A stretch of DNA of 30,769 nucleotides from a virus: positions 1 through 30,769 of the IMG/VR virus record IMGVR_UViG_3300031841_004375; one strand, given 5' to 3'. Below the pieces are notes generated by a model. That model had not been told where the DNA came from. It did not search any database and saw only the letters and a program-made list of their open reading frames with translations. Below, piece by piece: positions 8,118-28,019 of this stretch. The translations under genes were made by a program, and so were the position numbers. The first letter of the stretch is position 1. Each line of letters starts with the position of its first letter.

Positions 8118-8369
8118 CTAACATCTTGCATCTTGGTAACTAAAGTAAGCATCCACTATATGCGCACTGACACCTACAGCCGAACCATCTTTACCAGAAC
8201 AAAACCAAAGCCCACCGCTTCGCTTTATATTAGGCTTCACTTCATTACACAAGAGGAAATCACGGTAAGCCTCACTCTCGGTTATACCGACACCGATAGA
8301 TGGCCAGCTTCCGCTCCTGTCACCGCAAACAAAATCATCACCACACCTAACCGTGCTTAGATCAATCAC
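8118..8369 (-). CDS. Hypothetical protein (83 aa)
   Basis: Starts at GTG 8369 inside the end of the previous gene (GTGATTGA overlap of 8 bases). It has no independent ribosome site and is thus likely coupled. The sequence begins MIDLSTVRCGDDFVCGDRSG, with four Cys over 83 residues and several Gly-Ser-Trp/Phe turns. No family is recognised. It is the last gene of the csrA transcription unit and is followed by the 8072-8101 terminator. Confidence 0.6.
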   Translation of the reverse strand: MIDLSTVRCGDDFVCGDRSGSWPSIGVGITESEAYRDFLLCNEVKPNIKRSGGLWFCSGKDGSAVGVSAHIVDAYFSYQDARC

Positions 8370-8874
8370 TTTCCAGCGCCTCCAATCGCTCTAGCACATC
8401 CTGTAAGTCACATATCTCAGCAACACTCTTAATATTGTCAATCATGATCTTACCAATATCAGCAGACAGCTCACCGTTCATAATTGCATCCATAACAAGC
8501 TCAGCCCTTTGAGCGTGTGTAGCGCCTTTGTTGTACCCCTCCAACTTAACGGCATCAACCGATGCCTTGAGGGGTGGCAATATGCGCTCCATTAGCATAG
8601 CGACGTTCTTTTGATCTTGAAGTGTTGCATCCTCACGATCCCCTTTTAGCACCATATCCTTAACTATCGCTACCATAAGTTCGTTGCGGTGAGTGAACTG
8701 ACCGCAGGAAGAATACAGGCCTGAATTAGCGATACCCTGCAAAATAATAGACTTAATAGATGCTTGCCGCTTAGGATTCTCAATAAGAGACATATCCTGC
8801 CTAAATTCCTTTTCGTTCTCCTTTAGGCTGGAAGAGTCAACAGCCCCACCAAAACTACGATAATTTTTGCTCAC
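8362..8874 (-). CDS. Hypothetical protein; weak small-terminase candidate
   Basis: A 170-residue protein starting at GTG 8874, with AAAGGAG 8 bases upstream. An earlier Met is possible but would lie within csrA coding sequence. It is mostly helical. The C-terminal 60 residues (AELVMDAIMNGELSADIGKIMI..., ending LQDVLERLEALE) resemble the tail of DUF5681-type or small-terminase-like phage proteins, which carry a similar D-x2-NGE-[LI]-x2-D-[IA]-G segment and a final L-x-x-R-[LI]-x-ALE. No small terminase is otherwise visible, and TerL lies downstream on the same strand. The size matches P22 gp3 (162 residues), but homology is weak. It overlaps csrA by 20 bp. Confidence 0.5.
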   Translation of the reverse strand: MSKNYRSFGGAVDSSSLKENEKEFRQDMSLIENPKRQASIKSIILQGIANSGLYSSCGQFTHRNELMVAIVKDMVLKGDREDATLQDQKNVAMLMERILPPLKASVDAVKLEGYNKGATHAQRAELVMDAIMNGELSADIGKIMIDNIKSVAEICDLQDVLERLEALESD

Positions 8875-9133
8875 GATCCACTCTCCTTTGAATTTCCTCT
8901 CTGTGCACTGAAATGCTTCTAGGCGCCTCAATCCCTAACCTAACCTTACCACCACCAGCATTAAGCAACTTAACATAAGCGATTTCCTCACCAACATTAA
9001 CAATAATTTCCTGATTAAGCATCAGCTGCTGGCCGTTAAGCACCGCCTTTTTATGCCCAATCTTTTCCACCTTCACAAAGACACCTCCACCCAATACGAT
9101 GGATTGCCCTCTAAGCCTCGAAAGTACTAGCAC
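8855..9133 (-). CDS. csrA: Phage-encoded CsrA-like RNA-binding regulator, enlarged
   Basis: A 92-residue protein from GTG 9133, which is 7 bases after AAAAGGAG. The start gives MLVLSR at the N-terminus, equivalent to MLILTR of CsrA. The C-terminal half, KVRLGIEAPRSISVHREEIQ, is an almost perfect CsrA signature including the RNA-contacting Arg of VHREEI; the N-terminal Leu4 is also kept. CsrA is normally about 61 residues. This protein has about 30 extra residues in the middle. Both GQSIVLGGGVFVKVEKIGHKK and NQEIIVNVGEEIAYVKLLNAG align with the same CsrA beta2-beta3 region, so that region looks duplicated. CsrA dimers bind GGA motifs in mRNA leaders and block or stabilise translation. A phage copy could re-programme host or phage mRNAs. 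Confidence 0.88.
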   Translation of the reverse strand: MLVLSRLRGQSIVLGGGVFVKVEKIGHKKAVLNGQQLMLNQEIIVNVGEEIAYVKLLNAGGGKVRLGIEAPRSISVHREEIQRRVDREQKLS

Positions 9134-9216
9134 GTCTAATCTCCTTTTTTTTGAGCGCCCATTCAAAAATATAGTCAAATTGACGCACATCCCAAGATTT
9201 TGTTACGTAATACAAT

Positions 9217-11406: not shown

Positions 11407-11617
11407 TTGCGTCAATTGAGAATTTATCGCAAATGATAGCATGTACTAATACCTTGTTTTTTACATGAATTGGATTTACTCAAAGCCACGGGAGACTAGG
11501 CGCTCCAACTGGCAATAATAAAACTATCAATCTTGGTGGTTTTTTTGGGGTGTCACTTTCCTCCTCTGAAATTTTTTTTTAGATATGTTAGGGGGTCAGA
11601 ATCACAAAATTTAGGCG

Positions 11618-11641
11618 AAAAAAAACCACCGTTAGGTGGTT
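11618..11641 (-). terminator. Strong leftward terminator in the control region
   Basis: Read leftward: AACCACC-TAAC-GGTGGTT followed by six more T, a perfect 7-bp stem. No leftward gene lies upstream of it, so it implies a leftward (antisense or regulatory) transcript beginning between 11642 and the replication operon. Confidence 0.75.
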
Positions 11642-12075
11642 ATGTTTATTTGCCTGAAAATAAAAATAGCTCTCCCCTCTCAATATCTCTAAGAGATATA
11701 AGATGCGGGCATAGGTTCCTGTAGTATACCACAGTTTTGAAGGGGGGTTTTTACAGGCTCGATTTGAGCCACCAAACTACTAGAAAAAGCCTAAATACTC
11801 TGTAGGCCGCGTCATCCGTGGCTTTCGGGTTTTATTTTCCATGTACTTGTATGATGTAAAGCCACCAAGAAAGTCGCCTAAATCATCTTTTTTGGTGTGT
11901 TTTTGCTGTTTTTTGCCAAAAATAATTCATGAAAAGACGAAAATAGTTTTTAGAACATTCGGGGAGGCCTGATTCTGCGCGGCCTGTGGGTAATATTGGC
12001 CTAGATTTGGGAAATCTTCAACTCTTCCAGCAATATGGTCTATTCTGTTTTTACAGTAATCAAAGAGGTGCGAAG

Positions 12076-12501
12076 ATGAAGTACGACAGGCGCGTGTGGC
12101 CAAAGATCACGGAGATATTGCGGATTGTGCAGGAAGAAGAAGTGGATGACTGGTTCCCGTTAGGCTGCATTGAGCTTAAGGGGGTTAGTCGAGAGCAGTG
12201 CGGAAGAATGCTTTATCAGTATCAGCAATTCTTCCCGCAAAATATCAGGTTGGTGGGAGGCAAGGCCAAGGTGGGGAATTTCGAATCTTCCGGCAATCCT
12301 CCACGAAGGAGATGCTACAAAGCCATAGACTTAATACTAGGATGCGGTTGTGTTGCTACTTGCGATGTCATATCAGCTATGGCAATGACTGACAGACGTG
12401 AATCGGCTTTAGCAATGGCTAGGTACGCAACCAATTCTAAGCGTGTAAGATTGTCCGCCCGTCGCAATGGCGATATATGTCTGGAGTTGATTGATGGATA
12501 G
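12076..12501 (+). CDS. Small protein, paralog of the 9238-9573 product
   Basis: A 141-residue protein from ATG 12076, preceded by AAAGAGGTG. Residues about 25-65 carry the same unit as the 9238-9573 protein: GVSREQCGRMLYQYQQFFPQN, then a basic stretch ending PPRRRCYKA. The second half adds a region with an Ala-rich helix (AMTDRRESALAMARYATNSKRVRLSARRN) not seen in the paralog. No known family is recognised; the basic content suggests nucleic-acid binding. It is the first gene of the rightward operon and overlaps the primase gene by 8 bases, so it is a candidate replication accessory or origin-binding factor. Confidence 0.65.
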   Translation: MKYDRRVWPKITEILRIVQEEEVDDWFPLGCIELKGVSREQCGRMLYQYQQFFPQNIRLVGGKAKVGNFESSGNPPRRRCYKAIDLILGCGCVATCDVISAMAMTDRRESALAMARYATNSKRVRLSARRNGDICLELIDG

Positions 12502-14863
12502 ATACAGTAGAACAATAAACGCACTGGAGTGGATGAACTGTTGTGAATACTCACAAGACCAATGGATCAAATACATACTGTGTATTAAGCATTATCTGGG
12601 TGAGGACGGCAGGGAGATAGCTAGGGAGTGGTCTGCTAGCGATCCAGAGAGGTTTACGGAATACGCCTTCAGGAAGGCATGGGATCACTCGGATGGGCGC
12701 AATAACGGCGAAGGTGCGCTATTTGGTGAGGCCAAGGCCAAAGGCTGGAGTCCTGTTGCCGAGTCCAAAATGACAGAAGCCCAAAGGGCGGCAATGGAGG
12801 AGTCAAAGCAGAAGGCCAAAGCCAGAATAAGAGAGTTGGAAGAAGAAAAAGCCAAGAAGTTTCAGGACGCACTAACAGCCTATGCCATGGCTGATCCAGC
12901 GACAGGGAAAGAGGGATACCTCACAAAAAAGCGTCTAGAGCTGCCGCCATGCTGCGAGGGTGTGAAATCAAATAGAGACGGATCACTGCTTCTTCCAGCA
13001 AAAAACCGAAAGGGCGACACTGTTGGTATCCAAGTTATAACTGGTACAGGAAAAAAATACATCTATGGAACCCAAAGCTATGGGTTTTTTGTCATTGGCA
13101 AGCTCGAGAGGGACTGCAAGGCTTGGCTGTGCGAAGGGTTCGCTACTGGACTTACTGGGTGGCGTGCTACAAACACTCCAGTAATCGTTTGTTTTACGGC
13201 GGATAACGTCAAAAACGTGGCAGATTCTCTGAGGGGTGATTTCGAGCTATCGGTACTGGCAGACAATGACAACGAAAAAACCAATAAAGGCTTGGAGGTT
13301 GCGCTTGCTACCGAACTCCCTTATTCGATGCCACGCTTTGAGCAGTACGGCGCAAAATCTGGGGATTGGGATGACTTGCGACAACTATCCAATATCGACG
13401 TAGTACGCAGAGAGATAAACGCTCAGCTAAAAAATAGCGAGGAAGACCTAACTCTCCCTGTTGATGTGAGCAAGGTAGATTTGCTTAACCCTCCTGACTT
13501 TGTGGGTGAGCTTGCCGACTGGATGGAAGCTAATGGACGCACAAACACTAAGCGGTTGTGCGTAATGGGTGCGCTTTATTCTGTTGGAGCTCTTGGTAGT
13601 CTGAGTCACTGCGATAGCGAAACGGGTGAGCCACTCAAGACAAACGTTTACGCATTTTGTATTGCGCCTTCTGGAACGGGTAAAGATACGGTTCTGGAAG
13701 GTGTTAACGAAGTGTTCCACATATCAGGTATGGGCGACGCTAACCAAGGCGAAACCATGTCATCACAGGAGATACAGCGGAACCTTTTTGATAGCCAGAT
13801 CGGCTCATATGTCATTGATGAAGTTGGGCAGGAGCTAAACTTAATCAACAAGAACGGCGGCCACAATGCTGGAATGGTTAAGCAGTTCACAGCTGGATTC
13901 ACCAAGGGTGATAAACGCTGGGGTGGACGGAAAACAGAGTTTAAGACATTCCTAGCTGCCAGAGACAAGCATATCGCCAAAATCAAGGCCGACCTAGAGG
14001 AGGGTTACGAAGGCGACGACCAGATAACAGAGGAGCGAGAGATATACCTAAAGGCTTTGCTTGAAGAATATCAATACGACAATGAAAACTACCTTGCTGC
14101 CAACTCATTCAATGGCGTGTCGCTAAATATGCTTGGTTTATCAACTCCAGAGAATTTTAACAAAATGGTTGACCACGAAAAAATTCAGGACGGTTTTTTC
14201 GGTCGAGCGTTTATTGCTGAGGAGTTCAATGACAACCCTAGATTCAAGAAGGGTTTCCGAAAGACGCCAATGACTGAAGACATGAAGATGGCATTAAAAG
14301 CGTTGACGTGCGGAGTTGAGACGGAAGCCAGATTCAAGGAAATTGGCATAAGGGCACCAAAGAAGCGCAAACCAGTAGGTACCTCTCCAGAGGCCGCGCA
14401 ATTAATGGAGGACATTAGCGAATACATTCATGGACTTGGTGAAGGTCTTCGAAAGCACGGCACTACTCCGCTATCTAGGCGAGCCTACGAGATGATTGAT
14501 AAGGTTAGCTTTATTTTGAGTCTATGCACTTCTTCCAGCAACACGTCCGTTAGGTATCGAACTGCAGAGCATGTTAGGTGGGCGTTTGCGTTTGTGCTAA
14601 ACGATATTCGAAATAAGGTTGAAATTGCCACCACTAACGCTTCTGTTGCTTTCGATGACAGGAGCGAGGCTGTGGTTAATGTGGTGCTCAAAACTGTTAA
14701 GCGAGGAAAGTCTCTAGCCATGTCTTGCGCCGAAATAAGGAGTTACAGTGACAATCGAAAATATGGCGCTGATGAAGTTAAAAAAGCGCTGGAAGAACTA
14801 GAGATGTCGGCTAAGATTAAGGTAACAAAGACAAAGCGCGGTACAAAAAAGTACTACAAGTGA
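12494..14863 (+). CDS. Toprim primase / DUF3987-type helicase with C-terminal winged helix
   Basis: A 789-residue protein; ATG 12494 with GGAG 7 bases upstream. Residues about 20-85 resemble a PriCT-like region (YAFRKAWDHSDGRNNGEGALF). A charged linker follows, then a Toprim fold with the catalytic Glu in WLCEGFATGLT (about 209-219) and the Asp pair in SVLADND (about 253). A DUF3987/VirE-like ATPase comes next: Walker A APSGTGKDT (about 391-399) and Walker B SYVIDEVGQE (about 438-447). The last 60 residues are a winged helix shared with the 10762-11214 protein. It probably primes and unwinds DNA at the phage origin. No N-terminal zinc ribbon is visible, unlike T7 gp4. Confidence 0.85.
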   Translation: MDRYSRTINALEWMNCCEYSQDQWIKYILCIKHYLGEDGREIAREWSASDPERFTEYAFRKAWDHSDGRNNGEGALFGEAKAKGWSPVAESKMTEAQRAAMEESKQKAKARIRELEEEKAKKFQDALTAYAMADPATGKEGYLTKKRLELPPCCEGVKSNRDGSLLLPAKNRKGDTVGIQVITGTGKKYIYGTQSYGFFVIGKLERDCKAWLCEGFATGLTGWRATNTPVIVCFTADNVKNVADSLRGDFELSVLADNDNEKTNKGLEVALATELPYSMPRFEQYGAKSGDWDDLRQLSNIDVVRREINAQLKNSEEDLTLPVDVSKVDLLNPPDFVGELADWMEANGRTNTKRLCVMGALYSVGALGSLSHCDSETGEPLKTNVYAFCIAPSGTGKDTVLEGVNEVFHISGMGDANQGETMSSQEIQRNLFDSQIGSYVIDEVGQELNLINKNGGHNAGMVKQFTAGFTKGDKRWGGRKTEFKTFLAARDKHIAKIKADLEEGYEGDDQITEEREIYLKALLEEYQYDNENYLAANSFNGVSLNMLGLSTPENFNKMVDHEKIQDGFFGRAFIAEEFNDNPRFKKGFRKTPMTEDMKMALKALTCGVETEARFKEIGIRAPKKRKPVGTSPEAAQLMEDISEYIHGLGEGLRKHGTTPLSRRAYEMIDKVSFILSLCTSSSNTSVRYRTAEHVRWAFAFVLNDIRNKVEIATTNASVAFDDRSEAVVNVVLKTVKRGKSLAMSCAEIRSYSDNRKYGADEVKKALEELEMSAKIKVTKTKRGTKKYYK

Positions 14864-14869
14864 GGAGTT

Positions 14870-15325
14870 ATGGATTACGGTAATTTTGTCTCGAACGAGA
14901 CAGATTCTAGATTGTTTGAAAGGATTTCATACTTCGATGGAGAGCATGAAGTCTTAATAAAGGATGATGCAATGATAACCTTCTTTGAAGGCGTTGATCC
15001 GATATTGGATTGTGAACCAATAGAGTCATTGTCGGAGAATAAGCGCATACTAATAGGTATGTTTAAAGAAGAATGCATAGATCATTCAAAGCACTATCCA
15101 GCCATTAAGCTGGAAAATATAAAATTTGATTATGACGGCGAAAGCGCTGTTTTTTTTTACGGAATTCCATTTAATATCAAGTATATAGACTTGCTTATAA
15201 GCATCAATCAGCCAGTCCTGTTGATGCCATCAAAAAACGGCAAATCTTTAGTGTTTTACACGCCGAATATGGGCATTTTTGGAAAAATAATGTCAATGTC
15301 ACCAACAAGGGAGAATAGGCAATGA
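14870..15325 (+). CDS. Hypothetical protein (151 aa)
   Basis: ATG 14870 follows TGAGGAG, six bases after the primase stop. The product is acidic in its first half, with hydrophobic stretches (SAVFFYGIPFNIKYIDLLI, QPVLLMPSKNGKSLVFY) typical of a compact alpha/beta fold; there is no membrane helix. The family is not recognised. Its stop is fused to the start of the hexad-repeat gene (ATGA), so it belongs to the same coupled series and is expressed with the Sak4-like ATPase. Confidence 0.6.
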   Translation: MDYGNFVSNETDSRLFERISYFDGEHEVLIKDDAMITFFEGVDPILDCEPIESLSENKRILIGMFKEECIDHSKHYPAIKLENIKFDYDGESAVFFYGIPFNIKYIDLLISINQPVLLMPSKNGKSLVFYTPNMGIFGKIMSMSPTRENRQ

Positions 15326-16173
15326 ACTTTGAAGTTAACGAAAAAGGTGGCTGGATAATCCCAAGTGGCACCGAAATGCCAAGCAATACCAAAATACCAT
15401 ATCACTCCTCTGTAGGTAATAATTGCAAATTTGGTGATTGCTGCGAATTTGGTGATGCCTGCAAATTTGGTGATTGCTGCGAATTTGGTGATGCCTGCAA
15501 ATTTGGTAGGTTATGCAAGCTTGGTTATTACTGCAAATTTGGTGATTACTGCAAATTTGGCGATGATTGCGAATTTGGTGGTAACTGCAAGCTTGGCAAT
15601 TACTGCGAACTTGGTAATGCCTGCGAATTTGGCAGGCTCTGCAAATTTGGCAGGTACTGCAAATTTGGTAATGACTGCAAATTTGGCATGTTCTGCGAAC
15701 TTGGCAATGCCTGCGAACTTAGTGATGCCTGCGAACTTGGTAATGGCTGCAAGCTTGGTTATTACTGCAATTTTGGTGATTACTGCAGGTTTGGTGATGA
15801 TTGCAAATTTGGCAATAGATGTGAACTTGGTAATGGCTGCGAACTTGGTGATGGCTGCGAACTTGGTGATGGCTGCGGATTTGGTAGTTACTGCAATTTT
15901 GGTGATGCCTGTGAGTTTGGCAATAGTTGCGAATTTGGTAATGACTGCAAAATAAATGAGGTAGCCGTTAAATATTTTATGCAAGCAAATAATATTGACG
16001 GTTCTGGCAGAGAATTAAAATTTATCTATGATGGAAATTATGTCTATATTGAGGCAGGGTGCTTTTTTGGCAAAAGTGAAGAATTTTTAGAAAAGGCCAA
16101 TAGCGAAGGAAAAATGGTCTACGCTAATATCATTAAGGTGATTAGCGAAGAAATCAAGAGGATGCAAAAATGA
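15322..16173 (+). CDS. Cys-rich hexapeptide-repeat protein 1 (29 repeats)
   Basis: A 283-residue protein starting at the ATGA junction. Residues 1-34 are a conserved head (MNFEVNEKGGWIIPSGTEMP). Residues 35-208 are 29 uninterrupted hexads C-[KE]-[FL]-G-[DN]-x, and the last 75 residues are a conserved tail (CKINEVAVKYFMQANN ... KSEEFLEKANSEGK). Read as [FL]-G-x2-C-x, the unit fits the [LIV]-[GAED]-x2-[STAV]-x rule of left-handed parallel beta-helices, giving about 9.7 coils with Cys stacked in the small inward position and Lys/Glu outside. No acyltransferase catalytic His loop is present. It has no signal peptide, so it is probably cytoplasmic with reduced Cys. Together with its paralog it brackets the Sak4-like gene. 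Its function is unknown; DNA mimicry, metal binding or scaffolding are guesses. Confidence 0.85.
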   Translation: MNFEVNEKGGWIIPSGTEMPSNTKIPYHSSVGNNCKFGDCCEFGDACKFGDCCEFGDACKFGRLCKLGYYCKFGDYCKFGDDCEFGGNCKLGNYCELGNACEFGRLCKFGRYCKFGNDCKFGMFCELGNACELSDACELGNGCKLGYYCNFGDYCRFGDDCKFGNRCELGNGCELGDGCELGDGCGFGSYCNFGDACEFGNSCEFGNDCKINEVAVKYFMQANNIDGSGRELKFIYDGNYVYIEAGCFFGKSEEFLEKANSEGKMVYANIIKVISEEIKRMQK

Positions 16174-17009
16174 GTCTATTATCACAATGCCAAAATCTGT
16201 CAGAAATAAAGCCATCTGCTCCAATATTGATGCTTGTTGGCGAGCCTGCCGTAGGAAAAACTTTGCTGGGTGCAACATTTCCAAAGCCATTAATTGTTAG
16301 GCTGGAAGATGGAAAGGAAACGCTTGTTAATGAGTGCGGCGACCTAGGATTAAGCGATATATGTATATCGCCAATCATTGACAGGGAAGAGCAGTTGATG
16401 GAATTACTAAGAGAGGTTGCAAAATCTGACTTTAAAACAGTCGTGTTTGATTCTGTTACATCGCTTAATGAAAAGATTTTGTGTAATGAAGTTCTTTGGG
16501 CTGATCAAGACCTTATAGCAAAAGGCAAGACTCCAACCATGAAAAACGTTCACGGAGGGTTTGGTGCTGGCGAAAAAATGCTCAAAGAAAAACACGTAAA
16601 CTTTCTGAAGGTATGCAACATCCTTAGGGGGCGCGGCATAGGCATTGTGTTTATTTGTCATTACGAGACTCGAAAAGTTGATGAAATTTCACATGATCCA
16701 TATGTGAAGGGTTCTATGCAGCTTCCGGCAGAAAAGTTGTGCAATGTCACTGCGCTGTATAAAAATGCCTGTGATGCTATCGGATTTATGCACAAGGAAA
16801 TGTTTGTTAGTGGTGCAGAAACAGAAGGGAAGTTTAAGAAAGCTGGAAGGGTAAGCGGATCCGGCAGCGTGTTTATTGAGTTTAATAATGACATAGCCTT
16901 TGATTGCAAGAGTCGCGGATACAGCTTTCCCGATAAGATTTTCATAGAAAAAGGTAAAAACCCGATACTTGAATACATTAAGTTTTATAACGAGGATCTT
17001 AACCAATGA
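16170..17009 (+). CDS. Sak4-like RecA-fold ATPase (single-strand annealing/recombination)
   Basis: A 279-residue protein at an ATGA junction. It has Walker A VGEPAVGKT (residues about 26-34), Walker B TVVFDSV (about 90-96) and a FICHYE segment (about 165) typical of the phage AAA_24/Sak4 group: short RecA-core ATPases that work with an SSB to anneal or exchange strands. The following MQLPAEKL and RGYSFPDKI segments also suit this group. The SSB-like gene is two genes downstream, as in known Sak4 modules. It is flanked by the two hexad-repeat genes through four-base overlaps on both sides. Alternative: a generic phage nucleotide-binding protein. Confidence 0.8.
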   Translation: MSLLSQCQNLSEIKPSAPILMLVGEPAVGKTLLGATFPKPLIVRLEDGKETLVNECGDLGLSDICISPIIDREEQLMELLREVAKSDFKTVVFDSVTSLNEKILCNEVLWADQDLIAKGKTPTMKNVHGGFGAGEKMLKEKHVNFLKVCNILRGRGIGIVFICHYETRKVDEISHDPYVKGSMQLPAEKLCNVTALYKNACDAIGFMHKEMFVSGAETEGKFKKAGRVSGSGSVFIEFNNDIAFDCKSRGYSFPDKIFIEKGKNPILEYIKFYNEDLNQ

Positions 17010-17641
17010 ACTTTGAAGTTAATGAAAAGGGTGGCTGGATAATCCCAAGTGGCACCGAAATGCCAAGCTTTTCGGTTATAGGCAATAACTGCGAATTCGG
17101 CAATGGCTGTAAGTTTGGTTATGGCTGCGAATTTGGTAATGACTGCGAATTTGGCAATTACTGTGATTTCGGCAATGGATGCAAGTTTGGTGATGACTGC
17201 GAATTTGGTGGTAACTGCGAATTTGGTGATGATTGCAAGTTTGGTTGTGATTGCATATTTGGTCATGGGTGCGAACTTGGCAGGTTCTGCAGTTTTGGTG
17301 ATAAATGCGAATTTGTTGATGATTGCGGTATTGGCAGGCTCTGCGAATTTGGTGATAGTTGCAAATTTGGTTATTGCTGTAAATTTGGTTATGGCTGCGA
17401 ATTTGGTAATGGCTGCAAAATAAATGAGATAGCCGTTAAGTATTTTATGCAAGCAAATAATGTTGATGGATCGGGTAGAGAATTAAAATTTATCTATGAT
17501 GGAAATTATGTCTATATTGAGGCAGGGTGCTTTTTTGGCAAAAGTGAAGAATTTTTAGAGAAGGCCAGTAGCGAAGGGAAGAATATGTACTATCATGTAG
17601 TTAGTTCAATCGTAAAATCAATCGAGGAGAATGCGCAATGA
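17006..17641 (+). CDS. Cys-rich hexapeptide-repeat protein 2 (18 repeats)
   Basis: A 211-residue paralog of the 15322-16173 product. It has the same 21-residue head, 18 hexads C-x-[FL]-G-x-x at residues 29-136 (about six beta-helix coils), and the same 75-residue tail. Some hexads are degenerate (CEFVDD, CGIGRL), while the tail is nearly unchanged. That suggests the repeat number and sequence drift while the head and tail are selected or homogenised. It starts inside the Sak4-like stop and ends inside the start of the SSB-like gene, so it should be made in a fixed ratio with both. Confidence 0.85.
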   Translation: MNFEVNEKGGWIIPSGTEMPSFSVIGNNCEFGNGCKFGYGCEFGNDCEFGNYCDFGNGCKFGDDCEFGGNCEFGDDCKFGCDCIFGHGCELGRFCSFGDKCEFVDDCGIGRLCEFGDSCKFGYCCKFGYGCEFGNGCKINEIAVKYFMQANNVDGSGRELKFIYDGNYVYIEAGCFFGKSEEFLEKASSEGKNMYYHVVSSIVKSIEENAQ

Positions 17642-18219
17642 CAAACTTATGGGCACAACAGGCAACAGATTCATTCGAAACAGATTCGACCGACAGTGTG
17701 TTTTTGAGTGGATCGGAGTTTCTGGCAAATATTGAAAAAATTTCATGGGAAGAGGTAAGAGCAGATTATCAAAAAGACCAAGGCGAAAAGCTAATTAATG
17801 TGCAGTTTCGTAACTGCGGCCAGCATTACAACAATCTAGTTCAATTCATGAAACTTAAAGTGATGTCCCCTAAGCAGGGGGCGGCTGAGCGTGCGGTAAA
17901 GTTTCTTTGTGCAATCGACGGCGCAACAGGTGCGGGAATCATGGGAAGCGGGCAGGCACCCACAAACGAGCAACTACAAGCTTGCATAGGTAAGCCGCTA
18001 ATCTACAAGTTGGATACGTGGAATATGAACGGCAACGAGGGCAACCACGTTAACGGTATTCGCACGTACATGGGAGAGGAGCCTCCAAAACCAACCAAGC
18101 GCCCAAAACGTGAACAGACGCAACAACAGTTTACTCCGCCACCGCCTGCCTCGCCATTTGGTGCTCCTCAAGCTCCAGTGCAGAGCTCTGATATGGGGGA
18201 TGACATCCCTTTTAGCTAA
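17638..18219 (+). CDS. SSB-like single-stranded DNA-binding protein
   Basis: A 193-residue protein. The N-terminal ~145 residues form a mixed fold (VQFRNCGQHYNNLVQFMKL, GKPLIYKLDTWNMNGNEGNHVNGIRTYMGE) compatible with phage OB-fold SSB/DUF669-type proteins. A Pro/Gln-rich flexible linker (FTPPPPASPFGAPQAP) leads to the acidic tip DMGDDIPFS. The DDIPF tip is the protein-docking tail of bacterial SSBs; here one Ser follows it. It probably coats ssDNA during phage replication and recruits the Sak4-like ATPase or helicase. It is coupled to the hexad-repeat gene by ATGA, and a hairpin (GTGCC/GGCAC, 18222-18252) follows the stop. Confidence 0.75.
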   Translation: MTNLWAQQATDSFETDSTDSVFLSGSEFLANIEKISWEEVRADYQKDQGEKLINVQFRNCGQHYNNLVQFMKLKVMSPKQGAAERAVKFLCAIDGATGAGIMGSGQAPTNEQLQACIGKPLIYKLDTWNMNGNEGNHVNGIRTYMGEEPPKPTKRPKREQTQQQFTPPPPASPFGAPQAPVQSSDMGDDIPFS

Positions 18220-18273
18220 GTGCCGTTTTGAGTTACAGTGAGTTCCGGCACGAAAAAATAGGAGCTCATGCTA

Positions 18274-18702
18274 ATGTCTCAAAAAAAATGTTTTAAATGC
18301 GGGGCTGAAAAGCCCCTAAGTGAATTTTACAAGCACAAAGGTATGGCGGATGGGCGTTTAAACAAATGCAAAGAATGTGCAAAAAAAGATTCGACAAAAA
18401 GAAGGTGGAATAAAATAGAGGAGGCAAGGGAATACGATAGAAAAAGAGGGAACAGACAAGGATACAAATACATAAAGGAGTACAGGGAAAAGTACCCCAA
18501 AAAGTACAAAGCTCACCGTTTTATAAACAACGGAATAAAAAGCGGACTATTAAATCCTGAGCCTTGTTGCGTTTGCGGAACCAAAGAAAATTTGGTAGCC
18601 CATCACGATGATTACAATAAGCCCCTAGAAATAAGATGGATGTGTCAAGCGCATCACAAGCAATGGCATAGGGATAACGGGGAGGGGTTAAACCCAACAT
18701 GA
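18274..18702 (+). CDS. HNH/zinc-finger endonuclease-like protein
   Basis: A 142-residue protein. ATG 18274 is 9 bases after GGAG; ATG 18268 is too close to it. The N-terminal CFKCGAEKPLSEFYKHKGMADG, followed by NKCKECAK, is a zinc ribbon widespread in phage HNH proteins. The C-terminal region holds CCVCGTKENLVAHHDDYNKPLEIRWMCQAHHKQWH, with the HH, the asparagine-replacing Asp/Lys segment and the second CxxH zinc pair. It is either a homing HNH nuclease or a nicking enzyme of the operon. It interrupts the otherwise coupled replication genes, and its end is fused to the small zinc-ribbon gene. Confidence 0.75.
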   Translation: MSQKKCFKCGAEKPLSEFYKHKGMADGRLNKCKECAKKDSTKRRWNKIEEAREYDRKRGNRQGYKYIKEYREKYPKKYKAHRFINNGIKSGLLNPEPCCVCGTKENLVAHHDDYNKPLEIRWMCQAHHKQWHRDNGEGLNPT

Positions 18703-18839
18703 AAAAGTGCCCAAATTGCAGCAATGTTAATTTGGTTAGGTACGGATCCGTCCGTGCCTACTACTGCACACATTGCAATAGATACATAAAATTGCCAGCA
18801 ATCGATAGGAAGCAAAAGAATGTCAAAAAGCCTTTTTGA
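18699..18839 (+). CDS. Small zinc-ribbon protein (46 aa)
   Basis: A short gene starting at an ATGA overlap with the HNH gene. The product MKKCPNCSNVNL ... YYCTHCNRYIKLP has two CxxC knuckles 16 residues apart, the layout of a zinc ribbon as in transposase-associated InsA-type and transcription-factor ribbons, followed by a basic tail. Its last 20 bases overlap the start of the Gp157-like gene. Probable nucleic-acid-binding accessory; the function is unknown. Confidence 0.7.
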   Translation: MKKCPNCSNVNLVRYGSVRAYYCTHCNRYIKLPAIDRKQKNVKKPF

Positions 18840-19311
18840 ATTAAGTGAAGAATTGTTAGCTGTTGCCAAGCAGCTGGAAGATTTAGATGATCCGAAAGCG
18901 GTAAAAGACACACTAGAAGAATACAAGGCTCCTGTGGCCGAAAAAATCAAAAGCATGGCAATTCTGTATAAGTCGCTAGAGGGAGAAATAGATGTATTTA
19001 AGCAACATAAAGCTTCAGTGGATGCCAGAATAAAACTAAAAGAAAAGGCGTCAGGAAGACTAAAGAATTACATATTAGAAAGCGTTATAAAGACAGGCGT
19101 CACAATTGACTGCCCAGAGGTTCAGGTTAAAACCAGAAGCAAGGCTCCAAGGCTGGGGGCTGTAACAGCAAACATAGAAGATCTTCCGGCCGATTGCATT
19201 AAGAGGCAAGCTCCCTCTATAGATGCAAGAGCGCTATTGGCTAGAGCAAAACAAGATCCAATCAAAGGGGTTGAGGTTATCAGAGGCGAAAAGTCGGTGA
19301 CAATAAAATGA
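18820..19311 (+). CDS. Siphovirus Gp157-like protein
   Basis: A 163-residue protein; ATG 18820 with AGGAAG upstream. The first ~90 residues are a long coiled coil (LSEELLAVAKQLEDLDDPKA ... KEKASGRLKNYILESVI), followed by a compact domain with VQVKTRSKAPRLG and a C-terminal GVEVIRGEKSVTIK strand. This is the Gp157 layout (helical N-terminus, then a beta domain ending in a short RGE-x-S-[VL]-x-I strand), a family found beside Sak/SSB/helicase genes in phage replication modules. The exact biochemical role is not established; recombination accessory is the usual inference from context. Confidence 0.75.
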   Translation: MSKSLFELSEELLAVAKQLEDLDDPKAVKDTLEEYKAPVAEKIKSMAILYKSLEGEIDVFKQHKASVDARIKLKEKASGRLKNYILESVIKTGVTIDCPEVQVKTRSKAPRLGAVTANIEDLPADCIKRQAPSIDARALLARAKQDPIKGVEVIRGEKSVTIK

Positions 19312-19496
19312 CGGCAAAAAGGTTCGCGTCAAAATCAGAAATAAAAGATGTCGAATGCCCAAGGGAGCGCCAGAAAATAATAGATAGGCATGTAGAAAAA
19401 TATCTAGCTAATGGCGGAAAAGTAACAAAATACGACACCAGAGTGTGGCAACAACACGAAAGGGATAAGTGGGAGTATGGAAAAATTAAATCTTAG
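19308..19496 (+). CDS. Small basic hypothetical protein (62 aa)
   Basis: It begins at an ATGA junction with the Gp157-like gene and overlaps the helicase start by 20 bases. The product is Lys/Arg-rich and probably helical (ERQKIIDRHVEKYLANGGKV, then WQQHERDKWEYGKIKS). No motif is recognised. Its position, wedged between two replication genes by overlaps on both sides, argues that it is expressed. Confidence 0.6.
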   Translation: MTAKRFASKSEIKDVECPRERQKIIDRHVEKYLANGGKVTKYDTRVWQQHERDKWEYGKIKS

Positions 19497-21300
19497 GCCA
19501 TACCAAAAGCGGTGCATTGACGCCGCTATTGAGCATTTTTCAAGGTGCGGAGACTCTGCCTGCATAGAAGCGGCTACAGGCTCGGGAAAGAGTATCTTAG
19601 TGTCAAAGATCGCTGAGTACTTGCACAAGACGACTGGCGGTAGGATCTTGTGTACAGCTCCGTCTAAAGAGTTGGTGGAGCAGAACCACAAGAAATATAC
19701 CGCAATCGGCAAAGCAAGTATGTTCTCTGCTAGTGCAGGAAAGCTAAGTACACGACACAGTGTAGTTTTTGGTACGCCAATGACCATTAAGAATCACATT
19801 AAGCGATTCTCGAGCGGCGATTACTGCGCGATTATCATTGATGAGGCTCACACGGCAATGACGCCGACAATGATCCATTGCATCCAAAAGATGCAAGAGG
19901 CCAACCCAAGTCTGGCAATATTGGGGCTTACCGCAACTCCATACAGGTTGGGGACTGGATACATTTATAATGTGGATGAAAACGGCAAAACTCTCGGTGA
20001 AGATAAGGCTAAAAACCCCTTATTTTTCAAGCTATTATGCAGGATAACAGCAAACGAGCTGATAGATAAAGGCTATTTGACTCCACCAACAACAAGCGTC
20101 AAGGATGGATACGACACCTCAAAGCTTGAAATGAAACGCGGGAAGTATACCGAGGAGTCGTTACAGGAGACGTTTGAGGGGCATGGAAGAAAAACCAGCG
20201 CCATTGTTGAGGATGTGGTTAATAATTCCGCCGGAAGAATGGGCATTATGTTTTTTGGGGCAACAATACAGCATTGTCACGAGATAGCTTCATCCCTTCC
20301 AGCCAATTCATATCGCGTTATCTCTGGAGAGATGAAAAAGTCGCAACGAGAGAAAGCGATAAGCGAATTTAAACAGCAAAAATACCGATACATTATTAAC
20401 CGAGACGTGCTCACAACAGGTTTTGATGCACCTCATGTAGATGTAGTGGCTATCCTCCGAAGGACAGAGAGTGCCGCACTGCTTCAACAGATTATTGGTA
20501 GAGCGCTCCGTCTGCACCCAAATAAAAAGGATGCACTGATTCTAGATTATGCTCAAAACATCGAGTCGCATTTCCCTGACGGCGACATATTCAGTCCATC
20601 CGTCGAAGCTAGGCTAACCAGCAAAGAGTCAGCAACACTTAATGTCACCTGCCCAGATTGCGGCTATGTGAATGAGTTTGCTGCAAGAGACAACCCTGAT
20701 AATTTTGATTACTCCGATGATGGGTATTTTGTTGATGCACTTGGAGAAAAGATTGAAAATCTTCCAAGTCACCATGGCAGACGATGCCAAGGTTATAACC
20801 TTGTTAATGGGCACCATCAACAGTGCGGTAAGCGCTGGATCGGCAAGGAATGCGAAAAGTGCGGCCATGATAACGACATTGCAGCCAGATATTGCAAGAG
20901 TTGCAAGCACGAACTGGTAGACCCAAACGAAAAGCTTGTGATGGAGTTCAGGAAGATAAAAAGAAGTACCACTACGCCTTCCAGCGACAAGGTTTTATCG
21001 TGGAATGCCTGCCTTCATCAAGGCATGAAAAACTTATGCGTAAGAATAGACTGGGTAACTGAATGCAGGAGCTTTTCTATATACTATACTCCAGCAATGA
21101 AGGTTGAGTGGGTTGCGATATGTGAAGCGGTTTATGGTAAGGGTCATATAGCCCCTACAGTTGATATGTTTATGTCTGCATTTCAGCAACACGCAAAAAT
21201 GCCAGATACCATAACAGCTTACCGAAACCCAAAAAATAACTTCTATAGCGCAACAAAATACAATGAGCCACTACTTGAGGAGCCAGATATTGAAATATAA
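19477..21300 (+). CDS. SF2 DEAH-box helicase with zinc-ribbon region
   Basis: A 607-residue protein. Motif I is EAATGSGKS (residues 31-39), motif II IIIDEAH (about 118-124), motif III LTATPYR, motif V TTGFDAPHVD and motif VI QQIIGRALRLHP, which is the RecG/UvrB-like SF2 layout of phage replicative or recombination helicases. After the core there are CPDCGY, then CxxCGH and CKSCKHEL knuckles (residues about 390-490), which probably bind zinc and DNA. The C-terminal ~100 residues resemble the end of other phage SF2 helicases. It probably remodels forks or D-loops with the Sak4-like ATPase. GTATGG gives a poor ribosome site; coupling from the preceding gene is likely. Confidence 0.88.
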   Translation: MEKLNLRPYQKRCIDAAIEHFSRCGDSACIEAATGSGKSILVSKIAEYLHKTTGGRILCTAPSKELVEQNHKKYTAIGKASMFSASAGKLSTRHSVVFGTPMTIKNHIKRFSSGDYCAIIIDEAHTAMTPTMIHCIQKMQEANPSLAILGLTATPYRLGTGYIYNVDENGKTLGEDKAKNPLFFKLLCRITANELIDKGYLTPPTTSVKDGYDTSKLEMKRGKYTEESLQETFEGHGRKTSAIVEDVVNNSAGRMGIMFFGATIQHCHEIASSLPANSYRVISGEMKKSQREKAISEFKQQKYRYIINRDVLTTGFDAPHVDVVAILRRTESAALLQQIIGRALRLHPNKKDALILDYAQNIESHFPDGDIFSPSVEARLTSKESATLNVTCPDCGYVNEFAARDNPDNFDYSDDGYFVDALGEKIENLPSHHGRRCQGYNLVNGHHQQCGKRWIGKECEKCGHDNDIAARYCKSCKHELVDPNEKLVMEFRKIKRSTTTPSSDKVLSWNACLHQGMKNLCVRIDWVTECRSFSIYYTPAMKVEWVAICEAVYGKGHIAPTVDMFMSAFQQHAKMPDTITAYRNPKNNFYSATKYNEPLLEEPDIEI

Positions 21301-21688
21301 AGTATACGGAGATATATCGTTTCGAGATAAAAATTGCCCTCATGAAACGCCTGAGCATATGGCGTTTGTGAACTGGGTAAAAAAGACTCACCCAGTCCAC
21401 TACGACATGCTTATTCATCCGAAAAACGAGGGTGTAAGGACGCATCACCAAGCGGCAAAGGACAGGGCTTTAGGCAGCTTAAATGCTGGCGCTAGTGACA
21501 TAATAATACTTGGCAAGACTCCGTTTGTCTGTGAGTTGAAGCGCAAAGATAAAACGCTCTCAAGATTGTCAGATAAACAGAAATCCTTTTTAAATCAAGC
21601 AGTTGAATGCGGTTGTTTTGCTTGTGTAGCATATGGTGCAGAGGCAGTTATTGAGGCTTTCGAGGATTGGCTTGAAGAATGCAATTAG
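21290..21688 (+). CDS. VRR-NUC-like nuclease
   Basis: I start it at TTG 21290, because GAGGAG lies 7 bases upstream and it overlaps the helicase stop. ATG 21263 in the same frame has no ribosome site. The product is 132 residues. NAGASDIIILGKTPFVCELKRKDKTLSRLSDKQKSFLNQAVECGCFACVAYG fits the PD-(D/E)XK-type VRR-NUC motif (G-x-x-D ... E-x-K ... Q-x6-[AL]-x2-G), and HPKNEG-x-R-T lies upstream. VRR-NUC enzymes cut branched DNA. A role as Holliday-junction or flap nuclease of the recombination operon is inferred. Confidence 0.7.
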   Translation: MKYKVYGDISFRDKNCPHETPEHMAFVNWVKKTHPVHYDMLIHPKNEGVRTHHQAAKDRALGSLNAGASDIIILGKTPFVCELKRKDKTLSRLSDKQKSFLNQAVECGCFACVAYGAEAVIEAFEDWLEECN

Positions 21689-21870
21689 AAAAAAGGCCTA
21701 GGCACTACGCATTAGAAATATGTAAACTCAAAACGAAAGAGGAGCGCCTAGAGGCGCTTTTTTTGGTTCCTGAGCACCTAAGAGAAATGACTAAAGTTCA
21801 CGTTATTAACACTTTTGCCTTGAATGCTCAGAGACTGGTAAAATACAACCTTCAACCACGATTCAGGTAG
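21679..21870 (+). CDS. Small protein with an embedded terminator (63 aa)
   Basis: Starts at ATG 21679 within the nuclease gene (10-base overlap). The segment TKEERLEALFLVPEHLREMTKVHVINTFA resembles a short helical unit found in small phage proteins next to replication genes (R-x-E-x-R-x-EAL-x2-VPE-x-LR-x2-V-x-x-H-V). The DNA coding for RLEALF folds into an intrinsic terminator (21743-21764), so a fraction of the operon's transcripts would stop inside the gene. The function is unknown. Confidence 0.6.
   Translation: MQLEKRPRHYALEICKLKTKEERLEALFLVPEHLREMTKVHVINTFALNAQRLVKYNLQPRFR
21743..21764 (+). terminator. Intrinsic terminator inside a coding sequence
   Basis: AGCGCC-TAGA-GGCGCT is a perfect 6-bp GC stem with a 4-base loop, and the following bases make a run of seven T. 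It lies about 22 codons into the 21679-21870 gene and near the end of the replication operon, separating it from the membrane-protein genes. Confidence 0.75.
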
Positions 21871-21876
21871 ATCGAT

Positions 21877-21978
21877 ATGTACGGACAAAGACCCAAGCCA
21901 AAGCCCAAGACAACCAAGAAAAAGGCTACTACGGCCATCAAGAAAAAGCCAAGAAACAAGAATGGTAGCAAGAGGTGA
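21877..21978 (+). CDS. Very small basic protein (33 aa)
   Basis: ATG 21877 with AGGT upstream; 33 codons. About half the residues are Lys, Arg or Pro (RPKPKPKTTKKKATTAIKKK). The stop overlaps the GTG of the next gene. Similar lysine-rich miniproteins occur in podovirus genomes next to lysis genes, but their role is not known. It could bind DNA or RNA, or the acidic head of another protein. Confidence 0.5.
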   Translation: MYGQRPKPKPKTTKKKATTAIKKKPRNKNGSKR

Positions 21979-22403
21979 TATCTTTTGTTCTTCTTTGTAT
22001 TGCTGGGCTACTTATTAGCATGGCGTGCAAAATTAATGCTTCAGTAATATTTTTTGGTGCCGCCTTAGCTTGGTTGGCTGTATCGCCAATGGCGCCACTA
22101 TCCATATACTTTCACCTTTCTGGCATAGTATCAACAATATCAATCACATTCATGTCGTTCTATCCGTCAAAAGCGGCTGAGCGTTTGGTGTGGTGTTCTT
22201 TAGCTTGCGTTGTTCTTAATGCCATAGATTTTACCTTATACCATTCAGGTAGCCAGTTATTCGCCTATACCCCCTTGGCGTTCTTTTCTGTCTATGTTGC
22301 GGCTCTACTCATTACCATTGAGGAATGCAGAAATGCAGGAGGTTATTGGAATCGGCTTAGTTTTCTTTCTTCTAATATTTTGGCTAGGGTTGCGGGAAGG
22401 TAG
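21975..22403 (+). CDS. Polytopic membrane protein (142 aa)
   Basis: Starts at GTG 21975, overlapping the previous stop (GTGA). The protein has about four hydrophobic helices: residues about 3-17, 22-40, 45-62 and 65-115, the last probably containing two. This is typical of a small inner-membrane protein with a short cytoplasmic tail. The family is not recognised. Being the first gene of a run of three membrane-protein genes, it may belong to the lysis cassette as a holin or holin regulator, but no lysis motif can be pointed to. Confidence 0.6.
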   Translation: MISFVLLCIAGLLISMACKINASVIFFGAALAWLAVSPMAPLSIYFHLSGIVSTISITFMSFYPSKAAERLVWCSLACVVLNAIDFTLYHSGSQLFAYTPLAFFSVYVAALLITIEECRNAGGYWNRLSFLSSNILARVAGR

Positions 22404-22455
22404 GCGATGCTCAAAACATTACTGCCAACATCGACAACAGCGGGAGCGACTGTAA
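22333..22455 (+). CDS. Nested small membrane protein (40 aa), possible
   Basis: A reading frame inside the end of the 21975-22403 gene and the start of the 22407-22622 gene, in a third frame. It has an AGGA ribosome site 8 bases before the ATG. Residues 5-19 (IGIGLVFFLLIFWLG) form one membrane helix, followed by a strongly basic, Cys/His-containing tail. Nested lysis genes of this type are known (spanin Rz1 within Rz), but there is no lipobox here. It may be fortuitous. Confidence 0.35.
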   Translation: MQEVIGIGLVFFLLIFWLGLREGRRCSKHYCQHRQQRERL

Positions 22456-22622
22456 TCGCTTACATAAGTGATATAGGTTCAGCAATTAGCATTCTAATCG
22501 GTCTTGTTGCTGGAGTATTTACTATAAAGTTTATGCGCCTCAGAAATGAGAAAATAAAGTTAGAGAGTGAAAAGCTTAGGCGGGAGATTGAAGCAATGGG
22601 GGAGAGCCCTACAGAAAAGTAG
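22407..22622 (+). CDS. Holin-like membrane protein (71 aa)
   Basis: ATG 22407 follows GGAAGGTAGG. Residues about 12-27 are moderately hydrophobic and about 28-44 (ISILIGLVAGVFTIKFM) strongly so. The tail (RLRNEKIKLESEKLRREIEAMGESPTEK) is highly charged and helical. One or two membrane helices with a charged cytoplasmic C-terminus is the form of small class II/III phage holins. It would time lysis by permeabilising the inner membrane. The neighbouring 3TM-type holin gene suggests a holin/antiholin pair. Confidence 0.55.
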   Translation: MLKTLLPTSTTAGATVIAYISDIGSAISILIGLVAGVFTIKFMRLRNEKIKLESEKLRREIEAMGESPTEK

Positions 22623-22634
22623 GGCAATAGACAG

Positions 22635-22826
22635 CTAGAAGTCTGGGTAATCCTGTTCAAATGCTTTTCTTGCTTCCCGCTCCATACATTCCTCGGCCTC
22701 TTGATCGCAGTTTGATATAAACCTATTCATGAACTCCTTAGACGTCTCGATATTGTGATTTGTGACCATGTTGTATCTTTCAATCGCTACTTTTGAAATA
22801 AAGAAAGCCTGATTTAAAATTCCCAT
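22635..22826 (-). CDS. Small antisense-oriented protein (63 aa)
   Basis: A leftward gene in the gap between two rightward holin-like genes. ATG 22826 has AGAGGA 8 bases upstream. The product begins with a short hydrophobic-helical part (NQAFFISKVAIERYN) and ends acidic (DQEAEECMEREARKAFEQDYPDF). The family is not recognised. No promoter is obvious, but its ribosome site occupies the region where the 22842 gene's own would be expected. It is oriented against the lysis transcript, so translation or antisense RNA could affect lysis timing. Confidence 0.5.
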   Translation of the reverse strand: MGILNQAFFISKVAIERYNMVTNHNIETSKEFMNRFISNCDQEAEECMEREARKAFEQDYPDF

Positions 22827-22841
22827 TACAGTGTTCCTCTT

Positions 22842-23195
22842 ATGAGTGTGTTAAATAAAATATTTCCAGTTTCAAAGTCCGCCGGAAAGATTGTTGACTC
22901 CATCACCAAGGGCGTTGACGAATCCATTCTTACCAAAGAAGAAAAGGCGAACTACCTATTAAAATGGCTTGACGCCTCACTGCCTCACAACACTACCATG
23001 CGCGTTTTGGCTTGGAGTGTTGGAGGTGTATGGATCATATCCTACTTGGCAATGCAGATTGCTGGAATGTCTGGTTATGATGCCCAGTATCAGCTACTTA
23101 AAGATGGCCTTACGCAATTTGTTGAGCCGCATTTTGATACTATCGTGTACGCCTACTTTGGTGTTGCTGTTCTTAGTCGCATCAAGGGAAAGTGA
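22842..23195 (+). CDS. Holin, GTA/3TM-holin-like
   Basis: A 117-residue protein. The N-terminal AGKIVDSITKGVDESILTKEEKANYLLKWLDA resembles the amphipathic start of the 3TM holin family (G-[KR]-x-[IV]-D-x3-x-[IG]-D-x4-T-x-EEK). Membrane helices lie at about residues 55-75 and 97-113. It would form lesions in the inner membrane at lysis. The ATG has no clear ribosome site, because the upstream DNA contains the start and ribosome site of the leftward 22635-22826 gene, so translation may depend on the long lysis transcript. Confidence 0.65.
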   Translation: MSVLNKIFPVSKSAGKIVDSITKGVDESILTKEEKANYLLKWLDASLPHNTTMRVLAWSVGGVWIISYLAMQIAGMSGYDAQYQLLKDGLTQFVEPHFDTIVYAYFGVAVLSRIKGK

Positions 23196-23369
23196 TATTG
23201 ATTCTATCGCCGTCTCAATATCGGAAATAGCCCTGCTTACATCTCTTGCCATTGCCTTTCTTGTCATTCGGAGTAAGCACTCCTTGGCCTCAAGTTCTAG
23301 CCAGTCTTCCCAATCGGACGGGTTGGTGCCGTATCGAGTCAAACATACCGTGCTGGCGTATCTGTTCAT
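23094..23369 (-). CDS. Small helical antisense-oriented protein (91 aa)
   Basis: ATG 23369 has GAGAGGAT upstream. The product is mostly helical and charged (DWLELEAKECLLRMTRKAMARDVS, then a coiled-coil-like SRAISDIETAIESISLSLDATKN). It overlaps the 3' 100 bp of the holin gene on the other strand. Its centre (EAKECLLRMTRKAMARD) recalls the EECMEREARKAFEQD of the 22635-22826 protein, a loose similarity. A divergent TATAAT region (around 23405-23425) could drive it. The function is unknown. Confidence 0.45.
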   Translation of the reverse strand: MNRYASTVCLTRYGTNPSDWEDWLELEAKECLLRMTRKAMARDVSRAISDIETAIESISLSLDATKNSNTKVGVHDSIKMRLNKLRKAIFK

Positions 23370-23410
23370 TATTTCATCCTCTCTAGTTGGTTTGTCCTGC
23401 TGCTCACATT

Positions 23411-23475
23411 TATAATAGTGAATATCTAAGATCGCTGCAGTTTATTGGGTGACAAAATTGCTATTTATTTTTTTG
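23411..23475 (+). promoter_or_regulatory. Promoter-leader module, copy A
   Basis: TATAAT at 23411-23416 (with TTGGTT 18 bp upstream), 19 unrelated bases, then TGCAGTTTATTGGGTGACA (23436-23454). Copy B before gp10 has the same box, the same 19-base gap and the same 19-mer with one difference. Here GGGTGA of the 19-mer can pair with TCACCC 25 bases further on. Downstream up to 23613 no gene is seen apart from a possible TTG-started frame of 26 codons. Confidence 0.5.
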
Positions 23476-23613
23476 AATCACCCAGCTACCGAAATTAGAA
23501 AAAAGGGCGCTGAATCACACACGCGATTTATTTTATGACGATATAGTTGAAAGTGTAAGGGTGAGGCGTTTGAGTCGCTTTGCCCGCATCTGACTAAATA
23601 AGGATATTTAATC

Positions 23614-23688
23614 ATGAAACTTAAAGCCCCAATCGTTACAGCAGGCAAGAATAAAGGCGTTTGGATCGTGGCAGTTCCCAGCGCATAA
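23614..23688 (+). CDS. Possible 24-residue peptide gene
   Basis: ATG 23614 with AAGGA about 10 bases upstream encodes MKLKAPIVTAGKNKGVWIVA followed by VPSA and TAA. The peptide is compact, starts right after promoter module A, and is followed by the ribosome site of the 23714 gene. It may be a real miniprotein or a leader peptide that controls the next gene. Confidence 0.4.
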   Translation: MKLKAPIVTAGKNKGVWIVAVPSA

Positions 23689-23713
23689 ACAAACCCAAGC
23701 GAGGAGATTAATA

Positions 23714-24304: not shown

Positions 24305-24309
24305 ATTAA

Positions 24310-24329
24310 TATGGGTGAGTAATCACCCA
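24310..24329. terminator. Stem-loop after the orphan paralog
   Basis: ATGGGTGA-GTAA-TCACCCAT, a perfect 8-bp stem 5 bases after the stop; only TTT follows, so termination may be partial. A second hairpin (GCTGCATA with TATGAGCAGC, 24372-24395) lies in the gap before gp10. The GGGTGA/TCACCC words recur in promoter module A. Confidence 0.5.
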
Positions 24330-24454
24330 TTTAGCCCAGTCAAAACAGCCTATTCATGCTGCGGGAGTTGAGCTGCATATGTTTGTATGAGCAGCGCTTT
24401 CGCACCTCTCTATTTCTCATAACCCCCTCACTGGCCTACCGTTCTTCCTGCAAT

Positions 24455-24500
24455 TATAATGAGCGTAATTTTATATTATTGCAGCTTATTGGGTGACAGG
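24455..24500 (+). promoter_or_regulatory. Promoter-leader module, copy B (gp10 promoter)
   Basis: TATAAT at 24455-24460, 19 bases, then TGCAGCTTATTGGGTGACA (24480-24498), directly followed by GG and the ATG of the gp10-like gene, so the end of the conserved 19-mer (GGGTGA) acts as or overlaps the ribosome site. No clear -35 is seen, as in many phage late promoters that need an activator. Confidence 0.55.
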
Positions 24501-27790: not shown

Positions 27791-27792
27791 GG

Positions 27793-28005: not shown

Positions 28006-28019
28006 GCTAAGGTTCCTAT

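Follow-up and report, generated by a model that had tools for sequence, protein, structure and literature searches.

An internally duplicated CsrA encoded by a P22-like phage and its predicted fold as a single-chain pseudo-dimer

CsrA is a textbook interlocked dimer. The protein of 92 amino acids described here, encoded on a phage contig, is a CsrA with an internal duplication, and as such represents a new architectural form within the known CsrA family. In the reading that we favour, with a probability of about 0.68, it is a single-chain pseudo-dimer with one RNA site that came about by partial tandem duplication of a csrA gene followed by fusion, such that one fused chain would do the work of the two subunits of ordinary CsrA.

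The gene and its setting in the phage contig

The stretch of DNA analysed as a whole (the window, 30,769 nucleotides) belongs to IMG/VR record IMGVR_UViG_3300031841_004375. Judged by its genes, the record represents part of a P22-like phage genome, with a P22 portal, a terminase 3, a primase-like protein, an SSB, a DEAD helicase and a tail fibre encoded in the window, and the nearest DNA relatives of the terminase region are found in phages of Vibrio, Shewanella, Pseudomonas and Enterobacteriaceae. The same phage is also represented by a contig from a different sample (IMGVR_UViG_3300032086_003275), which is 99.9% identical over window positions 11601-30769 and runs about 3.5 kb beyond the window end. 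The window thus covers the phage genome only in part; the csrA gene lies outside the coverage of this contig. The open reading frame at 8855-9133 is a genuine gene, and the features around it are the following.

8855..9133, minus strand: csrA-type gene, 92 amino acids plus stop, with a GTG start at 9133
9134..9149, minus strand: ribosome-binding site AAAAGGAGA of the csrA gene, recognised from its sequence, about 6 bases before the GTG
8362..8874, minus strand: downstream gene, phrog_9747, of unassigned function, with its own ribosome-binding site AAAGGAGA inside the csrA gene

The full 92-residue product is MLVLSRLRGQSIVLGGGVFVKVEKIGHKKAVLNGQQLMLNQEIIVNVGEEIAYVKLLNAGGGKVRLGIEAPRSISVHREEIQRRVDREQKLS. 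The ribosome-binding site of the csrA gene contains a GGA within it, so that autoregulation by the CsrA-type protein is possible. The phrog_9747 gene and the end of csrA have 20 bases in common, and this overlap, together with a ribosome-binding site that lies inside csrA, makes it likely that the two genes are translationally coupled.

Several other genes of the window have unusual features of their own. Two related genes (15322-16173 and 17006-17641) consist of 18-base tandem repeats encoding Cys-x-Phe/Leu-Gly-x-x, in about 29 and about 18 copies, respectively; they have their N-terminal and C-terminal ends in common, and an AAA ATPase gene (16170-17009) sits between them. Their products look like duplicated repeat proteins and are perhaps beta-helices. 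The primase-like protein (12491-14863) has 790 amino acids, of which the first 300 are PriCT-2 and Toprim-like; the nearest phage proteins match it only from about residue 290 on, leaving this first part uncovered. Additionally, the gene at 622-1326 encodes a KilA-N-like protein, yet its PHROGs class is lysis/amidase (phrog_6095), so that the two labels conflict.

An internal duplication in the sequence

The Pfam CsrA family (PF02599) matches the window protein twice: profile positions 2-29 match the N-terminal stretch with 17.3 bits, and profile positions 13-51 match residues 46-85 with 39.6 bits, positions 13-29 occurring in both matches. The whole protein reaches 54.6 bits against this family, above the curated cut-off of 27, and falls below the CsrA equivalog cut-offs of NCBIfam, with 48.8 of 70.1 bits for TIGR00202 and 53.1 of 73 bits for NF002469. 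A second profile, built from the ordinary phage and bacterial CsrAs fetched in the present analysis, also matches twice, to residues 1-29 (22.0 bits; beta1 to beta4) and to residues 40-90 (55.2 bits; beta2 to the helix), with profile positions 9-29 shared by both matches. When scored alone against the beta2-beta4 columns, residues 38-70 gave 24.8 bits, a value that none of 3000 shuffles reached, and residues 9-36 gave 12.2 bits.

The latter score is weak for a copy taken without its beta1, as would be expected if the double match were a chance result or an artefact in an ordinary CsrA carrying a disordered, low-complexity insertion. Such an account is highly improbable, given that only 1 of 3000 shuffles reached 12.2 bits, that a double match is also seen in four further sequences with this layout and that the structure prediction described below contains no disordered stretch. 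The two overlapping matches and the shuffles thus bear out the internal duplication that a preliminary description of the gene had proposed, along with its remark that some 30 residues had been added to a protein with a textbook CsrA C-terminal half: the window protein has about 31 residues more than a CsrA of 61 amino acids, and residues 40-90 account for the higher of the two scores. The same description had confined the repeated unit to beta2-beta3. Its extent has to be redrawn, as the repeated piece runs through beta4 (beta2-beta4) and a degenerate second beta1 stands between the copies, ahead of the second. The parts of the protein are laid out as follows.

9047..9133, minus strand: copy 1, matched stretch (residues 1-29), with beta1 bearing L4 and R6, beta2, beta3 and the start of beta4
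9011..9040, minus strand: junction (about residues 32-41), with the degenerate second beta1, a strand at residues 35-38 in both AlphaFold2 models
8864..9016, minus strand: copy 2, matched stretch (residues 40-90), with beta2', beta3', beta4', beta5 and the C-terminal helix

Copy 1 has neither a beta5 nor a helix. The degenerate beta1 corresponds to residues 35-38 within GQQLMLNQ, where LMLNQ has a Q at the place of R6 of ordinary CsrA, and the beta5 of copy 2 reads V76-H77-R78-E79-E80. The sequence of each chain therefore holds one complete beta1/beta5 pair.

Predicted fold

The protein was modelled as a single chain with AlphaFold2, using 65 ordinary CsrAs as the alignment in the main run. 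The resulting model is a closed fold with a pLDDT of 94.6 and a pTM of 0.79, although the alignment under this best model splits the ordinary CsrAs over both copies, which counts against our favoured reading. The strands span residues 2-7, 11-14, 18-26, 29-32, 35-38, 42-47, 50-60, 63-69 and 76-78 and are followed by a helix at 79-91, in the expected order b1-b2-b3-b4-b1'-b2'-b3'-b4'-b5-helix. No residue falls below a pLDDT of 70, and an ordinary CsrA fold with a disordered insertion was thus not seen. The prediction made without an alignment was weaker (pLDDT 71.5, with 2 of the 5 models over 60): it contained strands 11-14, 18-25, 29-32, 35-38, 42-47, 50-60 and 63-69 and the helix, and beta1 was not formed.

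With VIA-align, residues 33-91 of the model superpose on residues 2-57 of 2bti_A, a whole CsrA protomer, with 1.4 A over 56 residues and a Z of 6.5, a moderate value of a kind (Z below 8) that according to the tool can be common, the sequence relation being independent of Z; against 1vpz_A the superposition was 1.3 A over 54 residues. Since these residues superpose on a complete CsrA chain, copy 2 appears to be shaped as one subunit of the swapped dimer. Residues 1-32 would then provide beta1-beta4 of a second subunit, and the order of the strands, taken together with the superposition, would place beta1 next to beta5. The model also implies that the sheet without beta5 has an open edge, which counts against the single-chain reading. 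In a Foldseek search against the PDB no match was obtained at E < 0.001, the best being chains of RsmN/RsmF at E of about 0.07.

These features set the protein apart from known members of the family, to which its Pfam score, the L4 and R6 of beta1, the VHREE of beta5 and the C-terminal helix relate it. Ordinary CsrA/RsmA proteins have one beta1-beta5-alpha unit in about 55-75 amino acids, whereas the 92 residues of the window protein are predicted to form nine strands and a helix and include a second copy of beta2-beta4. Moreover, CsrA/RsmA is an obligate swapped homodimer with two sites, while the window protein is predicted to be a closed single chain with one. The preliminary suggestion of an altered dimerisation gains support from this model.

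A more conservative reading would be that the protein forms an ordinary domain-swapped homodimer in which both RNA sites are kept and each chain carries an extra beta-hairpin module, the added strands either lengthening the sheets or creating a new contact surface. It would be in keeping with the conservation of both beta1 and beta5, as a normal dimer requires, and has a parallel in RsmN, where an insert between beta2 and beta3 redirects the chain and a two-site dimer is still formed (PMC3791407). We consider it unlikely, given that the added part of the window protein is a copy of CsrA beta2-beta4, predicted with high confidence to complete a closed single-chain fold, and that residues 33-91 by themselves already have the full shape of a protomer.

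RsmN/RsmF of Pseudomonas aeruginosa resembles the window protein in being a CsrA relative rearranged by residues in the middle of the chain and no longer domain-swapped. It differs in that the insertion is a helix and the C-terminal helix is missing (PMC3791407), whereas the window protein has copied CsrA strands as its added part and keeps the C-terminal helix at 79-91. RsmN is the only rearranged CsrA that we found described in the open literature (PMC3791407). A further point of comparison is the C-terminal domain of YqeH, a two-repeat single-chain sandwich with an architecture very similar to that of the CsrA dimer and related to it by segment swapping (PMC2954204). This domain is not a CsrA by sequence, and the published comparison is with CsrA; YqeH did not appear among the 50 structural matches listed by VIA-align, which is uninformative either way.

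Long CsrAs on plasmids and in phage vsMR

When the whole protein was used to search plasmids, 15 records aligned over at least 80% of its length, one of them an artefact. The other 14 plasmids, 13 from Xanthomonas and one from Stenotrophomonas, encode a 'carbon storage regulator' with the layout of the window protein, of 113-116 amino acids in the three examined, and Pseudomonas phage vsMR carries an unannotated form of 92 amino acids. All five long sequences, of about 90-116 amino acids, show two CsrA matches (beta1-beta4, then beta2-helix) with closely similar profile ranges. The window protein is 28% identical to the plasmid type (e.g. WP_041854964.1 of pXCV183) and 25% identical to the vsMR protein over nearly the whole length, and the latter two share 33% identity over 92-97% of their length. 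Like the window protein, the plasmid and vsMR proteins consist of beta1-beta4, a second beta2-beta5 and a helix; unlike it, they have a longer linker between the copies and, in the plasmid proteins, a longer C-terminal tail. In a tree of the second copies (51 columns), a single duplication was not separated from several. On the Xanthomonas citri plasmid plB (3001-3634 of the fetched locus), the gene for the long CsrA (113 amino acids) stands directly before one for an ordinary CsrA (62 amino acids).

The long layout was not recovered elsewhere in the collections searched. Viral scans with the whole protein, its first 53 residues or the neighbouring gene returned only ordinary CsrAs or nothing, and no closer homologue; a scan of viral contigs with an alignment of five rows returned 68 CsrAs, none of the long layout. 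Bacterial genomes yielded no long form when scanned with the plasmid type, and 47 CsrAs, all ordinary, when scanned with the window protein. There was thus no ordinary CsrA of the same length and layout among the 68 viral and 47 genomic loci. In 369 gammaproteobacterial genomes, a profile of the long form had no stop-free full-length match among the best matches listed, a search that could miss a strongly diverged form. Faint matches in a suggestive register were obtained to phrog_6522 and phrog_37490, whose members are in no genome searched.

Three apparent parallels were discarded. A CsrA on a Pseudomonas fluorescens plasmid is an ordinary one that appeared long because the reading had been extended into upstream sequence. 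In phage F116, the 123 amino acids of the CsrA comprise an ordinary CsrA plus a C-terminal tail. A synteny with Vibrio phage VvAW1 does not hold, as the next gene there encodes an HNH endonuclease that bears no relation to the neighbour of csrA in the window.

With regard to the literature, the part of the survey by Sobrero and Valverde drawn on here records csrA genes on plasmids and 30 phages and contains no duplicated form (PMC7366521). An ordinary plasmid CsrA, RsmQ, is able to take control of host behaviour (PMC9928087). No published account of the long CsrAs of plasmids and vsMR was found in the open literature; a description in a subscription journal is possible.

Diverged candidates among phage proteins

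A Foldseek search of the model against predicted viral structures returned about a dozen whole-length matches of 81-160 amino acids, with TM scores of 0.57-0.75 and identities of 11-33%. Nearly all are unnamed; the best, A0A6J5RUQ1, is named Carbon storage regulator and is 33% identical. Ordinary CsrAs of 61-66 amino acids were placed lower than these matches, which on the strength of the predicted structures are likely to be diverged relatives. By sequence comparison, UOX39989.1 of Vibrio phage V-YDF132 and its relatives in VHS1-type phages (phrog_23332) are likely diverged members as well. They resemble the window protein in that about 45 residues precede a second half that matches CsrA (with 20 bits in V-YDF132), and in the motif APDEVCVSREE; they differ in being much diverged, in carrying about 65 extra C-terminal residues and, in several members, in missing the RE pair of beta5. 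Of the two structural matches of 160 amino acids, G8CTD4 is probably VHS1098 and A0A2I7RQV3 probably the 1.215.A protein, as judged by length and accession style alone. In VHS1-type Vibrio siphophages, the gene for the diverged long CsrA-like protein is the middle one of a conserved trio, between those for a pyruvate phosphate dikinase and a tyrosine-phosphatase-like protein, and is annotated as hypothetical, with no assigned function in any of these phages.

The loss of the RE pair in these likely relatives (1.215.A, VHS1 and PJ32) would suit a CsrA that has degenerated to the point of losing RNA binding and acts through protein contacts, with partners such as a flagellar assembly factor, a secretion chaperone or the host's own CsrA; solved complexes do show CsrA bound to a flagellar assembly factor and to CesT. 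For the window protein this is improbable, as the RNA-contacting residues L4, R6 and R78, together with E79-E80, are invariant in the window, vsMR and plasmid proteins. The invariant columns across the five long CsrAs include L2, L4, R6, A70, P71, V76, R78, E79 and E80. The R7 of E. coli CsrA is an L in the window protein.

A probable single RNA site and its possible role

In the RsmA dimer, each sheet is composed of beta5A-beta2B-beta3B-beta4B-beta1A, and an inter-subunit salt bridge joins an Arg of beta1 to the Glu after beta5 (PMC3791407). By alignment, this pair corresponds to R6 and E80 of the window protein and is invariant in all five long forms. In CsrA, each RNA site combines beta1 of one monomer with beta5 of the other, L4 and R44 being critical (PMC7652899). 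In a single-chain pseudo-dimer, copy 1 would supply beta1-beta4 and copy 2 the degenerate beta1, beta2-beta5 and the helix, and the intact site would be made by beta1 of copy 1 (L4, R6) with beta5 of copy 2 (V76, H77, R78). The other site has lost both halves, since copy 1 is without beta5 and the beta1 of copy 2 is without R6; with the partner halves gone, selection appears to have kept one cross-subunit site. One site being intact and the other lost, the protein would have a single GGA-binding site and would be monomeric, or at least would not have to be swapped. The change in RNA specificity raised in the preliminary description is not supported, because the key residues of one site (L4, R6 and H77-R78) are kept.

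The targets of such a protein may be single GGA sites, located in leaders or in the loops of hairpins, of phage mRNAs, of host mRNAs or of Csr-type sRNAs. For glgC to be fully repressed, a CsrA dimer needs both of its sites (Mercante et al. 2009, reviewed in PMC7652899); a protein with one site would accordingly be expected to bind GGA and not to bridge two sites. It could thus act as a translational regulator or as a competitor in the Csr network, and an action on its own mRNAs and a competition with host CsrA are both possible; a closed single-chain fold would make mixed dimers with host CsrA less likely. GGA motifs are present in the phage leaders, many of them coinciding with ribosome-binding sites, and none is claimed here as a CsrA target. 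No known RNA was detected with Rfam, and hence no member of the known families of Csr/Rsm decoy sRNAs.

Significance

A route from dimer to single chain was proposed as plausible in 2010, in a study that counts CsrA among its examples of interlocked subunits and suggests that monomers may arise from such oligomers (PMC2954204). If the favoured reading is true, the window protein would be a concrete case in which an interlocked dimer has become a compact single-chain protein by duplication and fusion. The bridging of two GGA sites by CsrA is thought to matter for full repression, for instance of glgC. A natural CsrA with one chain and one site would put this idea to the test with no need for engineered heterodimers, and would reveal the advantage that a one-handed CsrA brings to a mobile element. 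More tentatively, CsrAs with a single chain and one site may make up a broad family on phages and conjugative plasmids, for the most part unannotated and derived from the swapped dimer by duplication and fusion, which would occupy host Csr sites without two-site bridging. A function would also be assigned to several phage proteins at present labelled hypothetical.
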